DNA of 57,464 nucleotides from Teichococcus deserti (GTDB taxonomy: Bacteria > Pseudomonadota > Alphaproteobacteria > Acetobacterales > Acetobacteraceae), in assembly GCF_001982615.1 (NCBI RefSeq), contig NZ_MLCO01000021.1:1-57464 (forward strand), read 5' to 3'. This document shows, in pieces, positions 35,640-41,948 of this stretch (its first letter is position 1; each line of letters opens with the position of its first letter). The translations under genes were made by a program, and so were the position numbers. Below the pieces are notes generated by a model. That model was given only the letters and a program-made list of their open reading frames with translations. It had not been told where the DNA came from and made no database searches.

Positions 35640-36449
35640 TTACTTCAGCCCGAAGCCCAGCGCGGTCAGCGCCGCGCGCATGCGGTCACGGCCCGACAGC
35701 GCGGCCGCATCGGCCAGGCGGGTCAGCATGCGGGGCAGCCAGGGCTGGCTGCCCTGGCCGACGCGCTGGGAAAAGTCTTCCATGGCGGCGTCGTAGCGGG
35801 CGACGGCCTGGGGATCGACGGGGGTGGCGCGGTAGGTCTCGTGGTGCAGCACCACGGATTGCGGCAGGCGCGGCTTGACGGCGCTGTGCGGACCTTCGAC
35901 GGGCCAGCCGATGCCCATGCCGAAGAGGCCCATGGCGCCGGGGGGCAGGTTCAGCTCCTGCGCCACGGACTCGGGGTGGTTGCGCAGGGCGCCGATGTAG
36001 CAGGCGCCGAGGCCCAGGGCCTCGAGGGCGACCGTGGCGTTCTGCGCGGCCAGCGCGGCGTCGATGGCGGCGACCATGAAGGATTCGAGGTAGTCGAGGC
36101 CGGTCAGGTCGCGGCCTTGCCCGGCACCCAGGGCGCGGTTGCGCGACAGGTCGGCGACCCAGACGAGGAAGAGCGGCGCCTCGGCGACGAAGCCCTGGCC
36201 GGCGGCGAGGGATGCCAGGCGGGCGCGGCGGGCCGGGTCGGTGACGGCGATGACGCTCCAGCTCTGCAGGTTGGAGGAGGTGGCGGCGGATTGCGCCGCG
36301 GCCACCAGTGTTTCTGTCAGGCCGGGTGGCAGTGGGCGCGTGGTGTCGAAGCGTCGGACGCTGCGGTGTTGCAACAGGGCGTCGATGATGGGGTGGTGCA
36401 GGATGGCGTCGGGCGCGTCGCCGGTCGCGTAGCGTTGCTCGAGGGACAT
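35640..36449 (-). CDS. NfsA-type NAD(P)H-dependent nitroreductase/flavin oxidoreductase
   Basis: FMN oxidoreductase of 269 residues. The N-terminal HRSVRRFDT motif binds FMN phosphate. The middle section SAATSSNLQSWSVIAV and the long C-terminal tail are typical of NfsA/FRP-type nitroreductases. The conserved stretch ALEALGLGACYIGALRNHP is also present. It would reduce nitro groups or quinones, or supply reduced flavin. It is convergent with the aminotransferase gene, with only 4 nt between the stops. It could in principle serve the FMNH2-dependent monooxygenases far upstream, but nothing links them. Confidence 0.88.
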   Translation of the reverse strand: MSLEQRYATGDAPDAILHHPIIDALLQHRSVRRFDTTRPLPPGLTETLVAAAQSAATSSNLQSWSVIAVTDPARRARLASLAAGQGFVAEAPLFLVWVADLSRNRALGAGQGRDLTGLDYLESFMVAAIDAALAAQNATVALEALGLGACYIGALRNHPESVAQELNLPPGAMGLFGMGIGWPVEGPHSAVKPRLPQSVVLHHETYRATPVDPQAVARYDAAMEDFSQRVGQGSQPWLPRMLTRLADAAALSGRDRMRAALTALGFGLK

Positions 36450-36531
36450 GGGCAGCGGGTCTCCGTTTCGCGCCGCAGGCTAAGCGCAGGTCTGGCCAAG
36501 GCCAATGGAAAGAAAGAAAAGAAGGGGGTCT

Positions 36532-36549
36532 GGGGGAATTCATTCCCCC
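36532..36549. repeat. Perfect hairpin before the OsmC gene
   Basis: GGGGGAA (36532-36538) and TTCCCCC (36543-36549) form a 7-bp stem with a TTCA loop, 21 bp upstream of the OsmC start codon. A purine-only run (about 36508-36528) precedes it. It has no T-tract on the plus strand. It may be an attenuating leader structure or a remnant terminator. Confidence 0.5.
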
Positions 36550-36570
36550 GGCGCTTCCTTGAGGTGGGCG

Positions 36571-37044
36571 ATGGCCGGCAAGCAGCATCGATATCGGGTG
36601 GCCGTCCGTTGGACCGGCAATCTGGGCGAGGGCACCGCGACGCATCGCGGCTACAGCCGGTCGCATCTGATCTCGGCGGAGGGCAAGCCCGATGTCCCGG
36701 GTTCTTCCGACCCGTCCTTCCGCGGCGACCCGTCGCGCTGGAATCCGGAGGAGCTGTTGCTGGCCGCCGTCGCCGCCTGCCACAAGCTTTGGTATCTGGG
36801 GCTTTGCGCCTCGGCCGGGGTGGTGGTGACGGCGTATGAGGACGCTGCCGAGGGCGAGATGCTGGAGGAGGCGGATGGCGCCGGCCAGTTCACCGGCATC
36901 ACGCTGCGGCCACGGGTGACGCTGGCGCCGGGCAGCGACATCGCGAAGGCCGAGGCGCTGCACGATGCGGCGCATGCCAAATGCTTCATCGCGCGGTCGG
37001 TGAACTTCCCGATCCACCATGCCGCCGAGACGGTCGCCGGCTAG
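36571..37044 (+). CDS. OsmC family peroxide-stress protein
   Basis: Small OsmC/Ohr-fold protein of 157 residues. The first redox-active cysteine is in LLAAVAACHKLWYLGLCA, and the second conserved position is the AHAKCFIARSVN segment. This Cys pair reduces organic hydroperoxides with lipoyl or thiol partners in family members. The ATG at 36571 (MAGKQHRYRVAVRW) follows GAGG; an upstream in-frame extension from 36505 crosses the hairpin and is unlikely. Its TAG stop shares a CTAG palindrome with the convergent NrtR-like gene. Confidence 0.88.
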   Translation: MAGKQHRYRVAVRWTGNLGEGTATHRGYSRSHLISAEGKPDVPGSSDPSFRGDPSRWNPEELLLAAVAACHKLWYLGLCASAGVVVTAYEDAAEGEMLEEADGAGQFTGITLRPRVTLAPGSDIAKAEALHDAAHAKCFIARSVNFPIHHAAETVAG

Positions 37045-37706
37045 ATCGTCCGGTCGAATTCCCGCGCCGCGTCGGGCGCCAGGGCGAAGAGCCGGGCCGG
37101 GCGATGCGCGCCGGCGCGGCGCTCGCCGACGGGGATGATGATGCGCTGCTCCTCGATCTTGCGCCGGAAGGAGGCGGGGTCGAGGCGGGCGCCCAGCACC
37201 TGCTCATAGACGCGGTGCAGCTCGGCCAGGGTGAACTGGGCGGGCAGCAGGAAGGCGGGCAGGGCGGAATAGCTGGCCTTGTTGCGCAGCCGGCGGACGG
37301 CGGCGGCGACGATCTCGGCATGGTCGAAGGGCAGCGGCGGCAGGGCGTCGACGGGGGCCAGGCGCAGGGCCGGGCCGGGGGCCAGCTCATCAAGGTTCAG
37401 CACCGACAGGAACGCCACGCTGATCGACCAGCCGCGCGGGTCGCGGGTGGCGCCGCCGAAGCTCGCCAGCTGCTCCAGGCTGCGCGGCGCCATGCCCAGC
37501 TTGTCGCGCAGCACGCGGCGGGCGGCGGGTTCCAGCCCGGCATCTTCTTCCGTCCGGACATAGCCGCCGGGCAGCGCCGGCTGGCCGAGCGCGGGCTCGG
37601 CCACGCGCGGGGCGAGGGCGACCTGCAGGCGGCCCTCGGCGAGGGTCAGCAGCACGATGTCCACGGTTGCGATCGGGGTCGGGTGCTCTGCCATTTTTCT
37701 GTTCAT
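37041..37706 (-). CDS. NrtR-like regulator: degenerate NUDIX domain plus winged helix
   Basis: A protein of about 221 residues with an N-terminal NUDIX-type domain (TVDIVLLTLAEGRLQVALAP, then LPGGYVRTEEDAG) and a C-terminal winged helix (QFTLAELHRVYEQVLG and FRRKIEEQRII), the architecture of NrtR regulators of NAD metabolism. The NUDIX helix reads AARRVLRDKLGM where catalysis needs RExxEExG, so the glutamates are lost (E to V, D and K). It should sense a ligand such as ADP-ribose rather than hydrolyse it. Starts at 37733 (GTG), 37706 and 37694 are all possible, with no clear ribosome site. It diverges from the J-domain operon, the natural target. Confidence 0.8.
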   Translation of the reverse strand: MNRKMAEHPTPIATVDIVLLTLAEGRLQVALAPRVAEPALGQPALPGGYVRTEEDAGLEPAARRVLRDKLGMAPRSLEQLASFGGATRDPRGWSISVAFLSVLNLDELAPGPALRLAPVDALPPLPFDHAEIVAAAVRRLRNKASYSALPAFLLPAQFTLAELHRVYEQVLGARLDPASFRRKIEEQRIIIPVGERRAGAHRPARLFALAPDAAREFDRTI

Positions 37707-37744
37707 AGGCCATCGGCGGGACGCTGACCACACGGTTTGGTGTT

Positions 37745-37777
37745 TTGTGCACTTTACAATTAACTACCATAAAGGTG
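37745..37777 (+). promoter_or_regulatory. Promoter and putative operator of the J-domain/VWA/PurA-like operon
   Basis: This is the most A/T-rich stretch in its neighbourhood. TTGTGC (37745-37750) and CATAAA (37768-37773), separated by 17 bp, form a plausible though weak promoter 21 nt from the start codon. ACTTTA (37751-37756) and TAAAGGT (37770-37776) form an imperfect inverted repeat about two helical turns apart across the promoter. That is a fitting place for the divergent NrtR-like regulator to bind. Confidence 0.4.
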
Positions 37778-37794
37778 GCCAGGAGGATCAAGCC

Positions 37795-38778
37795 ATGCCT
37801 GCCTCACCCACCGCTTCCGCGCTTCTGGCCGTGCCCCTGGAGGATGCGGCCCGCCTCTTCCCCGGCGATGCCGCTGCGGTGCGGGCCGGCTACCACCGGC
37901 TGGCCATCCAGTGGCATCCCGACCATTGCCAGGCGCCGATGGCGGATGCGGTGTTCAGCCACCTGACCCGGCTGCGCGACGCGGCGCTGCGCGGGCTGGC
38001 CGATGCGGCGCCGGAGGTGCTGCCGGGCGGCCGCCGCTTCCAGCCGCGCCGGCGCCATGCCATCGAGACCGGCACGCTGCTGGTCGGCGACGCGGCCTGG
38101 GCGTGGGTGATCGAGCCCGGCCAGGCCGACCTGGCGCGCAATGCCGCGGCGCGGATCGCGGGGCTGCGCTTCGCCGATGCCGCCATGCGCGCCCAGATGG
38201 CGCCGCTGCTGCCGCAGGTTCTTTCGATGGACGAGGGCATCGAGGGCACCGCCCTGCTGATGCGCCGCGAACCAACCGACATCCTGCTGCGCGATACGGT
38301 GGAGGCGGCGGGGGGCGCGCTGGGGCCGCGGCATGTCGCCTGGATTTGCAGCGGGCTGCTGCATCTGGCCTGCTTCCTGGCGGTCAACCGCCTGGTGCAT
38401 GGCGATATCGGGCCTGAAAGCGTCTGCATCGCCCCGGAAAGCCACCGCGTCGGCCTGCCCGGCGGCTGGTGGTATGCGACGCCCGAGGGCGCGCCGATGC
38501 CGGCCCTGCCGCTGCGCAGCGTCGATGTCGCGCCGGCCGCGCTGCTGGATGACGGGCTGGCCGATCCGGCGCTGGACCAGGCGCTGATCCGCCGGACGGG
38601 GCGCGAGATCGCCGGGCCGCTGGCCGCGCTGCCGCCGCCGCTGGCCGACTGGCTCGGACAGGAACGATTTTCGGATGCCGTGACCGAGTACGGGCGCTGG
38701 CAGCAGGTGCTGGAGGCCAGCTTCGGCCCGCGCCGCTTCGCCGTGCTCGACCTCGATGCCCGCAGCATCTACCGCTGA
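37795..38778 (+). CDS. J-domain protein fused to a kinase-like domain
   Basis: A protein of 327 residues. Residues about 15-75 form a DnaJ-type J domain: helix II AGYHRLAIQW is followed by HPD at 41-43, the motif that activates Hsp70. From about residue 90 the pattern resembles a protein-kinase fold. It has a hinge-like segment (TALLMRREPTDILLRD), a long helix (VAWICSGLLHLACFLAVNRL) and a catalytic-loop-like HGDIGPESV (202-210). Where DFG should follow there is VGLPGGWW, so metal binding is doubtful and this may be a pseudokinase. The ATG at 37795 has a perfect AGGAGG 8 nt upstream. First gene of a three-gene operon; function unknown. Confidence 0.75.
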   Translation: MPASPTASALLAVPLEDAARLFPGDAAAVRAGYHRLAIQWHPDHCQAPMADAVFSHLTRLRDAALRGLADAAPEVLPGGRRFQPRRRHAIETGTLLVGDAAWAWVIEPGQADLARNAAARIAGLRFADAAMRAQMAPLLPQVLSMDEGIEGTALLMRREPTDILLRDTVEAAGGALGPRHVAWICSGLLHLACFLAVNRLVHGDIGPESVCIAPESHRVGLPGGWWYATPEGAPMPALPLRSVDVAPAALLDDGLADPALDQALIRRTGREIAGPLAALPPPLADWLGQERFSDAVTEYGRWQQVLEASFGPRRFAVLDLDARSIYR

Positions 38779-38795
38779 AGGAAAGGAACAGAAAA

Positions 38796-39725
38796 ATGGG
38801 ACACGCCCGCTGGAGCCCGACCGACTGGGCCAGCTATGCCAGAAGCAGCGCCGGCAAGAGCCGCGCCGAGCTGTTCGACGCCCGCCGCATCGACCCGGCG
38901 CTGGACCCCAAGGGGGTGGCGCTGCGCGAGGCCCGGGATTCGGCGCATAACCCGAATTCCACCGGCATCGTCATCGGCCTGGACGTCACCGGGTCGATGG
39001 GGATGATCGCCGACGCCCTGGCCCGGCATGGGCTGGGGACCCTGGTGGAGGAGGTGCTGGCGCGCAAGCCGGTGCCCGATCCGCAGGTGATGGTGATGGG
39101 TATCGGCGACGCCTTCTGCGACCAGGCGCCGCTGCAGGTGACGCAGTTCGAGGCCGATATCCGCATCGCCCAGCAGCTGCAGGCGCTGTGGCTGGAGCAT
39201 GGTGGCGGCGGCAATGACTCGGAGAGCTACCAGCTGCCCTGGTACTTCGCCGCGCGCCACACGGCGATGGACTGCTTCGAGAAGCGCGGCCGCAAAGGCT
39301 ATCTGTTCACCGTGGGCGACGAGATGCCGCCGCCCGTCCTGCTGCCCGAGCAGATCGCGCGGATCACCGGCGACGGGGAGGAGCGTCCGCTGTCCCCCGA
39401 GGCGCTGCTCGCCGAAGTCGAAAAGAAATTCCATGTGTTCCACCTGATCGTCGAGGAGGGCAGCTATGCCCGCGGCAACCTCGACCGGGTGGTGCCGGCC
39501 TGGCAGCGGCTGCTGGGGCAGAAGGCGCTGCGGCTGGCCGACCACACCAAGCTGGCCGAGGTGGTGGTCTCCGCCATCCAGGTGACCGAGGGCGTCGATG
39601 CCGGCACGGTCACCGGCAGCTGGGAGGGCAAGACCGCCGCGGTGGTCAGCCGGGCGCTGGGCGCGCTGGTGCCCGAGGCGCCGCGGCGCGGGCTGTTCCG
39701 CTTCGGCTTCGGGAGGCGGGCATGA
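38796..39725 (+). CDS. VWA-domain protein with MIDAS motif, function unknown
   Basis: A 309-residue soluble protein. After about 55 polar residues, strand GIVIGLDVTGSMG carries the metal-ion-dependent adhesion site DxTxS (Asp63, Thr65, Ser67) of von Willebrand A domains. Later MIDAS-type positions may be the GGGGNDSESY and FTVGDEMPPP segments. No signal peptide or membrane helix is present, so it is cytoplasmic. VWA proteins often act as scaffolds with chaperones or kinases, which suits a J-domain/kinase-like partner 17 nt upstream. The stop overlaps the PurA-like gene by 4 nt. Confidence 0.78.
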   Translation: MGHARWSPTDWASYARSSAGKSRAELFDARRIDPALDPKGVALREARDSAHNPNSTGIVIGLDVTGSMGMIADALARHGLGTLVEEVLARKPVPDPQVMVMGIGDAFCDQAPLQVTQFEADIRIAQQLQALWLEHGGGGNDSESYQLPWYFAARHTAMDCFEKRGRKGYLFTVGDEMPPPVLLPEQIARITGDGEERPLSPEALLAEVEKKFHVFHLIVEEGSYARGNLDRVVPAWQRLLGQKALRLADHTKLAEVVVSAIQVTEGVDAGTVTGSWEGKTAAVVSRALGALVPEAPRRGLFRFGFGRRA

Positions 39726-40945
39726 GCATCGCCGAGGCCGTCATCGGCGCCGGCTATGGCGACGAGGGCAAGGGGCTGCTGACCGATGCCTTCTCCGCCC
39801 GCGCCGTCGCGACCGGGGCGCCGGTGCTGGTGCTCCGCTGCAATGGCGGGGCGCAGGCGGGGCATACGGTGGTGACGCCGGAAGGGGCGCGCCATGTCTT
39901 CAGCCATCTCGGCGCCGGCACGCTGGCGGGGGCCGCCACCTGGCTGGGGCCGGATTTCGTGGCCAATCCGGCGCTGTTCGTGCCGGAGCTGGCGGCGCTG
40001 CGCCGGATGGGCGCGTCGCCGCAGCTGCTGGCCGATCCCAGGGCCGCGCTGACCACGCCCTATGACATGCTGGTCAACCAGGCGCTGGAACAGGCGCGCG
40101 GCGCGGCGCGCCACGGCTCGGTCGGCGTCGGCGTCGGCGAGACCATCGAGCGGGGGCTGCTGCCGGCGTTCCGTTTGAACATCGGCGATCTGGCCGAGGG
40201 GCGCGACGCGCTGCGCGCCCGGCTGGAGACCATCCGCCGCGACTGGATGCCGCGGCGGCTGGCGGCGCTGGGGCTGGCGCCGGATGCGGATCTGGCGGCG
40301 CTGCTGAAGGATGACGCGCTGATCGAGGCCTTTTGCGACGATGCCTTCCAGCTCTGGGACAGCCTGGCGCTCTGCCCCGCCGCATCCTTGCCGGCCGGCC
40401 CGAAGATCTTCGAAGGCGCGCAGGGGCTTCTGCTGGATGCGGAGCGCGGCGCCTTCCCGCATGTGACGCGGTCACGCACCGGGCTGGAGGGAATCCTGCC
40501 GGTGCTGCGCGACGCGGGCATCACCCGGCTGCGCGTGACCTATGCGACGCGGGCCTATGTCACGCGGCATGGCGCCGGGCCGCTGGCGCATGAATTGTCC
40601 GGGCCGCCGGCGGCGGGCGTCGTCGACCGCACCAACCGGCCGCATCCTTTCCAGGGCAGCCTGCGCTTCGCCGCCCTGGACCTCGACATCCTGCGCGACG
40701 CCATCCGCGCCGACCTGGGCGACGCACCCGCCTGGCTGACCGTCGAGCCGGCGCTGGCGGTCACCTGTCTCGACCAGATGGAGGACGCCATCGGCGTCTT
40801 CGCCGGCGGCACGGAACGGCGGATCAGCCGGGAGGCGCTGCCGCAGGCCGCGGCCGCGCATTGCGGCTTGCCGCTGCGCGCCGTCGCCGCCGGCGACCGC
40901 CGCTCCGCGATCTTCTTCCACTCGCTGCCGGCGATGGCGGCGTGA
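39722..40945 (+). CDS. Divergent adenylosuccinate synthetase paralogue (PurA-like)
   Basis: A 407-residue member of the PurA family, which joins IMP and aspartate using GTP. Conserved: GAGYGDEGKG with the catalytic Asp14, RCNGGAQAGHTVV with the catalytic His, a VGVGVGETIER loop, FEGAQGLLLDAERGAFPHVT and ATRAYVTRHGAGPL. Changed: the Arg-rich aspartate loop (TTGRRRRTGW in PurA) is VVDRTNRPHPF, the guanine-specificity TKLD is VTCLD, and the C-terminal STGPDRTET loop is AAGDRRSAI. Housekeeping purine synthesis is therefore unlikely; it probably makes or senses a modified nucleotide. Coupled by overlap to the VWA gene. Confidence 0.82.
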   Translation: MSIAEAVIGAGYGDEGKGLLTDAFSARAVATGAPVLVLRCNGGAQAGHTVVTPEGARHVFSHLGAGTLAGAATWLGPDFVANPALFVPELAALRRMGASPQLLADPRAALTTPYDMLVNQALEQARGAARHGSVGVGVGETIERGLLPAFRLNIGDLAEGRDALRARLETIRRDWMPRRLAALGLAPDADLAALLKDDALIEAFCDDAFQLWDSLALCPAASLPAGPKIFEGAQGLLLDAERGAFPHVTRSRTGLEGILPVLRDAGITRLRVTYATRAYVTRHGAGPLAHELSGPPAAGVVDRTNRPHPFQGSLRFAALDLDILRDAIRADLGDAPAWLTVEPALAVTCLDQMEDAIGVFAGGTERRISREALPQAAAAHCGLPLRAVAAGDRRSAIFFHSLPAMAA

Positions 40946-40949
40946 GGCG

Positions 40950-41948
40950 CTATTCCGCCCGGATGTTGCGCTTGCGGATGAGCGCGCCCCAGCGCTCGCC
41001 CTCGGCGGCCAGATAGGCGGGGAAGGCCTCGGCGCTGCCGCCGATGACATCGATCGAGGCGGCGTCCAGCTTGCCGCGCACGCCCGGGTCCTTCAGCGCC
41101 GCGGCGGCGGCCTCGGACAGCCTCGCCACGATGGCCGGCGGCGTGCCGGCAGGCGCGAAGAAGCCGAAGTCGTTGGTGGCGTGGTAGCCGGCCAGCCCGC
41201 TTTCGGCCAGCGTCGGGACAGTCGGCGCCTTGGGGTCGCGGGCGCGGCTGGTCACCGCCAACCCGCGCAGCTCGCCCGAGGCCAGGTAGGGCAAAGCGGT
41301 GACGGAATCGACGAAGCCCATCGAGGTCTCCTTGGCGAGGATCGCCTGCAGCGCCAGCCCGCCGGAGCGGTAGGGCACGTGCAGCATCTCGATCCCCGCC
41401 ATGTCCAGCATCAGCTCCGGCGCCAGCTGGCCGACGGTGCCGGCGCCGGGCGAGGCATAGGACAGTTTTGCGGGCTCCGCCTTGGCGGCCGCGACCAATC
41501 CAGCGAAATCGCGGATCGGGCTGGAGGACGGCACGCAGACGAACATGGCGTTGCTGGCCAGCAGCGAGATCGGCGCGAAGGCGTTCGCCGGGTCATAGGG
41601 CAGCGGGCTGAACAGGAAGGGGGCCAGGGCGAAGGTGCCGGTCGGCGCCACGTCCAGCGTGTAGCCGTCGGGCCGGGCGCGTGCCAGCGTCGCATGGCCG
41701 ACCGTGCCGCTGCCGCCGGCGCGGTTCTCGACCACGAAGCTGCCGCCGAGGGACGCCGACAGCGCCTGGGCCAGCAACCGGGCCACGAAATCGGTGGAGC
41801 CGCCGGGGGCGAAGGGCACGATGACGGTGACCGCGCGGCTGGGATAGGGCGCTGCGGTCTGGGCCAGCGCCGGCAGGCTCAGCCCGGCGAGCGTTGCGCC
41901 CAGCAGCCCGCGCCGGCCGATGCCGTTCTGTTCCACGATGTTCTTCAT
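40950..41948 (-). CDS. Tripartite tricarboxylate transporter receptor (Bug-type)
   Basis: Periplasmic receptor of 332 residues. Leader MKNIVEQNGIGRRGLLGATL with a twin-arginine-like RR and cleavage near ALAQ. The mature part has the Bug loop VPFAPGGSTDFVARLL, ENRAGGSGTVGHATLA and LHVPYRSGGLALQ. It lies downstream of aroQ on the same strand, 33 nt away, so it probably binds a ligand of that pathway (for example a shikimate-type hydroxy acid, inference). No TctA/TctB genes accompany it. Confidence 0.87.
   Translation of the reverse strand: MKNIVEQNGIGRRGLLGATLAGLSLPALAQTAAPYPSRAVTVIVPFAPGGSTDFVARLLAQALSASLGGSFVVENRAGGSGTVGHATLARARPDGYTLDVAPTGTFALAPFLFSPLPYDPANAFAPISLLASNAMFVCVPSSSPIRDFAGLVAAAKAEPAKLSYASPGAGTVGQLAPELMLDMAGIEMLHVPYRSGGLALQAILAKETSMGFVDSVTALPYLASGELRGLAVTSRARDPKAPTVPTLAESGLAGYHATNDFGFFAPAGTPPAIVARLSEAAAAALKDPGVRGKLDAASIDVIGGSAEAFPAYLAAEGERWGALIRKRNIRAE

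Follow-up and report, generated by a model that had tools for sequence, protein, structure and literature searches.

The window analysed in this study, a 57,464-nt stretch of the Teichococcus deserti genome (contig NZ_MLCO01000021.1, positions 1 to 57,464), carries a compact gene cassette, in which an NrtR-like regulator gene diverges from three co-directional genes for a J-domain/pseudokinase fusion, a von Willebrand factor A (VWA) protein and a PurA-like ligase (Table 1). This four-gene arrangement, which an earlier note on the same DNA had described with spacings of 17 nt and -4 nt between the co-directional genes, was confirmed from the open reading frames (ORFs). For the regulator, alignment indicates that the ATG at 37706 or 37694 is a likelier start than position 37733.

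Table 1. The cassette and associated features, in window coordinates.
Feature	Position	Strand	Basis
NrtR-like regulator, degenerate Nudix plus NrtR winged helix	37041..37733	-	profile match, alignment
Predicted palindromic operator GTGTTTTGTGCACTTTACAA, family consensus TTGTAAaTTGCAAtTTACAA	37740..37759	.	expectation-maximization (EM) motif
J domain (HPD) fused to protein-kinase-fold pseudokinase	37795..38778	+	motifs, fold, profile
VWA protein, complete metal ion-dependent adhesion site (MIDAS; DVTGSM ... D175), core gene	38796..39725	+	motifs, fold, phrog_2971
Predicted PurA-like ligase with conserved catalytic residues and altered substrate pocket, core gene	39722..40945	+	Pfam, alignment
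4.4-kb stretch (most of OsmC gene plus cassette), missing in a same-genus genome with collinear flanks	36560..40948	.	
OsmC-family gene (listed ORF; likely start 36571), mostly within the 4.4-kb stretch, passenger	36505..37044	+	

Related loci were collected with a VWA profile, and the counts given here describe 160 of them, 80 of at least 357 confirmed bacterial matches and 80 of 280 confirmed viral matches. With profile hidden Markov models, the PurA-like gene was identified in 79 of the 80 bacterial loci, always within 1 kb and on the same strand, and in 78 of the 80 viral loci, 69 of them within 1 kb; two of the three misses (L033 and L141) are contigs that end no more than about 50 nt from the VWA gene, while the third (L098) has 2 kb left. 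A search seeded with the PurA-like protein found the VWA gene in 77 of 80 viral loci (absent from L192, L217 and L228). The sequence distances of the two proteins are correlated (r = 0.76 for 119 loci, 0.86 for the bacterial and 0.61 for the viral set), and none of 1,000 permutations reached the correlation in either the bacterial or the viral set. The J/pseudokinase gene was found in 59 of the 80 bacterial and 41 of the 80 viral loci and an NrtR-type regulator gene in 40 of the 80 bacterial loci (31 divergent, 9 co-directional), counts that are possibly low owing to contig ends or profile failure. Many of the bacterial loci are metagenome-assembled. In viral loci the NrtR profile gave seven matches, each of them a protein of NadM architecture with a nucleotidyltransferase and a Nudix part. 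Since the J/pseudokinase and NrtR genes are often absent and the PurA-like gene is near-universal, the VWA and PurA-like genes form the core. The four-gene cassette proposed earlier is thus real, compact and conserved, but the four genes together are not its unit, and the possibility raised with it, that the neighbours are not conserved together beyond this species, did not hold.

The core pair is widespread. Relatives of the VWA gene were detected in 21 of 72,556 plasmid records and in 206 of 50,697 phage records, Mycobacterium phages accounting for 188 of the latter, and the PurA-like gene follows the VWA gene in all eight records that were opened (four phage and four plasmid; seven by annotation, one by profile). 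In Mycobacterium phage Breeniome, one small gene separates the two. The bacterial hosts belong to Pseudomonadota, Bacillota, Actinomycetota, Bacteroidota, Chlorobiota, Acidobacteriota and Cyanobacteriota/Melainabacteria. That the two-gene core is kept from Ruminococcus and Rhizobium to Mycobacterium phages indicates a real selective value. Any further gene family was limited to at most 13 of 168 loci, as judged by one example for each cluster, and no recurrent ADP-ribosylglycohydrolase (ARG) family was seen in a survey that listed Pfam matches for 25 of 168 families and did not seek ARG by name. A search of the open-licence literature, preprints being outside its scope, found no published description of the gene combination.

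The PurA-like protein of the window matches Adenylsucc_synt of Pfam (6.4e-38) and is 32% identical to E. coli PurA over residues 6-286 of 432, but with 104.3 bits it does not reach the cut-off of the NCBIfam adenylosuccinate synthetase equivalog (402 bits). Along 189 sequences of the family (E. coli numbering), the catalytic positions that it shares with PurA as a member of the same superfamily are kept, i.e., Asp13 (0.99), Lys16 (0.99), His41 (1.00), Gln224 (1.00) and Thr239 (0.97), whereas pocket positions are replaced, Asn38 by Gln (0.98), Thr129 by Cys (0.87), Val273 by His (1.00), Thr301 by Gln (0.99) and Lys331 by Cys or His (0.54/0.44), with Arg131 mostly hydrophobic and Arg303 variable, in an alignment that is unreliable around Arg143 and in the C-terminal part. 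We take Asn38, Thr129, Arg131, Thr301 and Arg303 of PurA to be the contacts for inosine 5′-monophosphate (IMP) and aspartate. The family differs from PurA also in its linkage to the VWA gene and in forming a clade separate from two canonical PurAs and one PurZ (FastTree, 122 rows), the placement of PurZ being unsure owing to its long branch. The conserved catalytic site, the changed substrate pocket and the kept pairing together indicate an undescribed reaction.

The same protein matches phrog_1211, a family named 2-aminooxy adenylosuccinate synthetase, and thus shares the PHROG label, as well as the PurA superfamily and the occurrence in phages, with PurZ/PurZ0 (2-amino-adenylosuccinate synthetase) of the Z-DNA phages. 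In the part of PMC12884076 considered, Ser replaces Asp13 in 147 of 147 phage PurZ/PurZ0 sequences, whereas the cassette family keeps Asp at this position; PurZ/PurZ0 identity was therefore rejected. The family fits neither PurA nor PurZ, and the annotation as 2-aminooxy adenylosuccinate synthetase, both of PHROG 1211 and of NC_029044.1 gene 264 of a Mycobacterium phage (same family, so annotated despite Asp13), is probably a misnomer, suggesting that the PHROG label wrongly groups these enzymes with the DNA-modifying PurZ. In the viral contig L146 (3400-5922), an intein-like insert lies directly within the catalytic His41 loop of the PurA-like gene; inteins favour essential active sites.

The VWA protein gave no Pfam VWA match but matches phrog_2971, a family listed under unknown function, at 4.3e-49. 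AlphaFold models of the VWA and J/pseudokinase proteins, built from alignments of 46 and 47 sequences, have predicted local distance difference test (pLDDT) values of 94 and 96, respectively, and the VWA model resembles vWA/integrin-I folds including the VWA domain of NorD in Foldseek, with modest template-modelling (TM) scores of about 0.34-0.49 by query length. The MIDAS is near-invariant along 197 sequences (D63 0.98, T65 0.97, S67 0.98 and D175 1.00). A tandem pair of VWA genes precedes the PurA-like gene in three Ruminococcus-type loci (L067, L072 and L088).

The Pfam DnaJ match of the J/pseudokinase protein (0.0043, 17.6 bits) lies under the cut-off of 27.8, but the HPD motif is well kept along 93 sequences (H 0.90, P 0.87, D 0.89). 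The protein also gave a weak match to a kinase family of PHROGs (0.0023). As the best Foldseek match is a human J-domain/protein kinase A (PKA) chimera (TM 0.49) and a profile of the protein retrieves protein kinases (best 3.2e-9), the fusion is considered to be real. The Asp of HRD is present in 14 and absent from 79 of the 93 copies, and that of DFG is present in 4 and absent from 89; GGW stands at the DFG position in 75 copies including that of the window, in which HGD stands at the HRD position. Because most copies lack these residues, the domain is herewith named a pseudokinase, some copies appearing less degenerate in sequence.

The regulator matches NrtR_WHD (PF21906) at 7.2e-20 (71.3 bits against a cut-off of 27), the sole such match in the whole genome at E <= 0.001. 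Its NUDIX match (PF00293; 0.0016, 18.9 bits) lies under the cut-off of 21.1, and in the Nudix box Lys takes the place of the second (catalytic) Glu in 20 of 22 aligned regulators including that of the window, Glu being retained in two actinobacterial ones. With 155.3 bits against the 400 of the NCBIfam equivalog for ADP-ribose (ADPR)-responsive repressors, the window protein is best classified, by its profile scores, as NrtR-like and outside that equivalog. An EM search for palindromes in 34 divergent regulator-cassette intergenic regions, with only three shuffles for each motif width, yielded TTGTAAaTTGCAAtTTACAA from the 26 non-Ruminococcus regions (log-likelihood 199 vs 20-35 in the shuffles) and an AT-rich palindrome from the 8 Ruminococcus-type regions (82 vs about 30). 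The former is the top site of the whole locus in 22 of 26 cases (in L047 it ranks fourth), ranks that were obtained using a matrix trained on the same regions except for a leave-one-out test of the window, in which the site of Table 1 remained the best of all 57,445 positions (12.7 bits; next non-overlapping site, 3.8 bits). A degenerate pattern written to fit this site had no other match in the genome when up to 2 mismatches were allowed; a reversed control pattern also gave one match on each strand, and thus the genome search indicates only that a second site is absent. The palindrome shared by most of the divergent intergenic regions examined is the predicted operator of the NrtR-type regulator. 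The degenerate Nudix plus winged helix, the divergent gene and the palindromic operator are common to the NrtR regulators of NAD (nicotinamide adenine dinucleotide) metabolism, but the window regulator sits on the cassette and not on NAD synthesis genes.

Taken together, the four products agree well with their earlier descriptions: a degenerate-NUDIX plus winged-helix regulator (NrtR_WHD match and Glu-to-Lys change in the Nudix box) of NrtR type with its own predicted operator, a J-domain/kinase-like fusion (HPD, J-PKA chimera fold and kinase profile matches), a MIDAS-type VWA protein (complete MIDAS and vWA fold of the predicted structure) and a divergent PurA paralogue (IMP/aspartate contact positions changed family-wide, catalytic residues kept). 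An active kinase role of the fusion was not upheld, the catalytic motifs being missing in most copies.

NAD genes were surveyed in 50 records that carry the cassette (3 phages and 47 viral contigs chosen from the longer ones), the NAMPT and NADAR distances being taken from approximate cassette midpoints entered by hand. NAMPT/NadV was present in 19 of the 50. In 7 of these 19 its distance to the cassette is at most 3 kb (0.66 expected; reached in 0 of 20,000 simulations), and in 10 it is at most 10 kb (2.1 expected). For NADAR, 12 records hold 14 copies; a distance of 3.5 kb or less applies to 3 of them (0.43 expected; reached in 151 of 20,000 simulations) and one of 10 kb or less to 4 (1.2 expected; 519 of 20,000). 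Among viral flanking proteins (95 scanned of 204 listed) there were 6 NAMPT, 5 metallophosphoesterases, 3 NADAR, 3 Nudix and 1 Tad3-containing protein. When only distinct viral loci are counted, a gene for NAMPT, NadM or NADAR lies within 8 kb in 10 of 58; on the VWA tree this trait changes 9 times, indicating that the association was gained or lost several times. A second line for the NAD-linked theme of the earlier note thus comes from phages in which NAD-salvage or NADAR genes neighbour the cassette, as they do in a minority of loci. NADAR is the gene annotated just ahead of the VWA gene in Vibrio phage Va1.

Phage NadV, NadM and NADAR make or process NAD/ADPr, and the main text of PMC9503650 does not mention a VWA/PurA-like unit alongside them. 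The nearest known theme is that of the ARG-centred NAD-ADPr systems of that paper (Iyer et al. 2022), whose main text describes a Nudix or WYL regulator together with vWA chaperones, and phage NADAR/Nudix countermeasures. The cassette is similar to these systems in its Nudix-type regulator and vWA protein, NAD theme and mobility, but its PurA-like enzyme and J-protein are absent from the same main text, in which PurA, adenylosuccinate and DnaJ give no match; PurA and adenylosuccinate are also without match in the passages of PMC7159879 covered.

Mobility was evident both within the genus and between phages and bacteria. Among 98 genomes searched, the VWA gene was found only in that of the window, and in one same-genus genome the flanks are collinear (90% and 88% identity) with window 36560-40948 missing. 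The junction adjoins a short hairpin-capable palindrome; none of the five genes of the stretch is an integrase gene, and no shared repeat longer than 9 bp was found at its ends. Gain of the stretch in this lineage is the simpler reading of the sequence comparison, loss in the same-genus genome being the less simple alternative. On a wider scale, cassette sequences of phages and bacteria interleave: the phage/bacterium label changes 9 times in the PurA-like tree and 11 times in the VWA tree (both FastTree), and at least 5-6 of these changes are forced by well-supported branches.

Based on these observations, we propose, with a probability of about 0.42, that the locus represents an NAD/ADP-ribose-linked enzyme cassette traded horizontally between phages and bacteria. 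The regulator would repress the operon as long as the level of ADP-ribose, or of another ligand derived from NAD, is low, and release it when that level rises, for instance upon NAD consumption during phage attack or stress. Since the Asp13/His41 chemistry is kept and the phosphate, ribose and aspartate contacts are lost, the PurA-like enzyme may act on a purine compound that is not plain IMP, activating its 6-oxo group at the expense of GTP, and may join an amine to the activated purine to form an N6-substituted purine nucleotide. By way of its metal site, the VWA protein might be an obligate partner of the enzyme or a target adaptor, and Hsp70 (DnaK) could be docked to the VWA/PurA-like complex by the J-domain pseudokinase. 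Large phages also have the unit, in some cases next to NAD-salvage and ADP-ribose-processing genes, and with it they would maintain or change the NAD/purine pool while infecting a host, or weaken NAD-based immunity. In a more specific form, which we put forward as a tentative possibility, the PurA-fold GTP-dependent ligase, MIDAS VWA and J-pseudokinase would convert a precursor of inosine type, or one derived from NAD, into a new N6-substituted purine (di)nucleotide, which both sides would use in NAD-based conflict, be it as a signal, as a decoy or as a protected cofactor. With the regulator, its predicted operator, the core pair and natural variants now defined, ligand and product are directly testable.

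Several points weigh against the proposal of an NAD-linked cassette. Its activity, ligand and interactions are all inferred from sequence; NrtR is missing from 40 of the 80 bacterial loci, some of them cut by contig ends, and the operator motif is missing in 3 of the 26 regions (L005, L006 and L038, of Acetobacter and Allorhizobium) and weak in a fourth. No NAMPT or NADAR was found near bacterial loci, and 48 of the 58 distinct viral loci, many of which are cut by contig ends, have no NAD gene within 8 kb. As NadV occurs in 22-33% of medium and jumbo phages according to the parts of PMC9503650 considered, the frequency of NAMPT among the cassette-carrying records is not far above background, and only its closeness is striking; furthermore, the placement simulations ignore kinship between contigs that are not independent, and the 3.5-kb limit for NADAR was chosen after the distances were known.

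Among other explanations, a bacterial anti-phage defence or abortive system (the reading of the earlier note), in which the nucleotide is a signal or toxin and phage copies are stolen or decoys, survives best, although we consider it unlikely. The patchy and mobile distribution is in agreement with it, as are the NrtR-type control, which fits an off-by-default conflict system by the argument of section 3.8 of PMC9503650 (as far as that text was covered), the presence in one viral contig (L133:5168-6214) of a WDGH-Tad3 fusion situated about 1 kb upstream of the J/pseudokinase gene, Tad3 being a family of type I Thoeris inhibitors, and the matches of a few single bacterial flanking proteins to PADLOC models (MADS, PD-T4-6 and RT-protease). 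The four cassette proteins themselves, however, match no PADLOC family up to E = 1, and include no recognisable nuclease or pore. The defence-locus context expected in the earlier note was not observed either, no defence family being found in more than 2 of the 127 bacterial flanking proteins scanned (of 202 listed; 25 of 52 families listed). In addition, the frequency of the core in phages argues against a purely anti-phage role.

The possibility that the PurA-like protein is a plain purine booster, i.e., a divergent AMP-pathway enzyme carried as an auxiliary metabolic gene, is quite unlikely. Nucleotide-metabolism genes are common in phages, the catalytic residues of PurA are kept and host PurB could finish the product, but the family-wide replacement of IMP/aspartate contact positions is not in favour of this idea, the window host already has a separate PurA of its own, and the VWA and J-domain partners are left unexplained. 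Moreover, a PurB-superfamily lyase (PF00206, Lyase_1) was found in none of the 50 viral records, many of them fragments, whereas all 14 control genomes match; the narrower PF10397 (ADSL_C) also gave none, but missed E. coli and two other control genomes. In these phages, therefore, either the host or a gene beyond the fragments completes the product, or the product is not AMP.

Improbable to a higher degree is a chaperone-type assembly or protein-targeting module of J and MIDAS VWA proteins, with the PurA-like protein as a client or GTP-driven switch and no metabolite made: the HPD J domain, complete MIDAS and pseudokinase are as this would require, and pairs of VWA protein and NTPase exist, such as NorD (among the Foldseek matches) with NorQ, but the full catalytic set of PurA is conserved, which a pure switch does not need, and 21 of the 80 bacterial and 39 of the 80 viral loci gave no match for the J gene. 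That the enzyme modifies DNA bases in the manner of PurZ/PurZ0 (2-aminoadenine), which the name of phrog_1211 would suggest, is very improbable in view of Asp13 in 0.99 of the family instead of the Ser of PurZ/PurZ0 (PMC12884076, as above) and of the presence of the cassette also in bacterial genomes.

As for the surroundings of the cassette, the OsmC-family gene was considered as a further member but rejected, being without homologue in the other cassette loci fetched, and a sigma-70 promoter scan of window 36400-41200 gave no match. The next gene downstream (window 40950-41948) is one of the 52-123 TctC-type receptor matches found in each of 17 genomes of this genus. In Allorhizobium plasmid pAtS4e (L005:10408-16888), genes for an AAA ATPase, DUF5682 and DUF4132 lie directly 3′ of the cassette, presumably a MoxR/VWA-type neighbourhood. 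A HAD-like gene and a PRTase_3 (ComF-like) gene, which we take to be reminiscent of the biosynthetic module of Ter systems, lie near the cassette of Rhizobium phage RHph_TM3_3_6 (L003:929-2444), and a radical SAM gene adjoins another phage cassette (L116:5622-6677).

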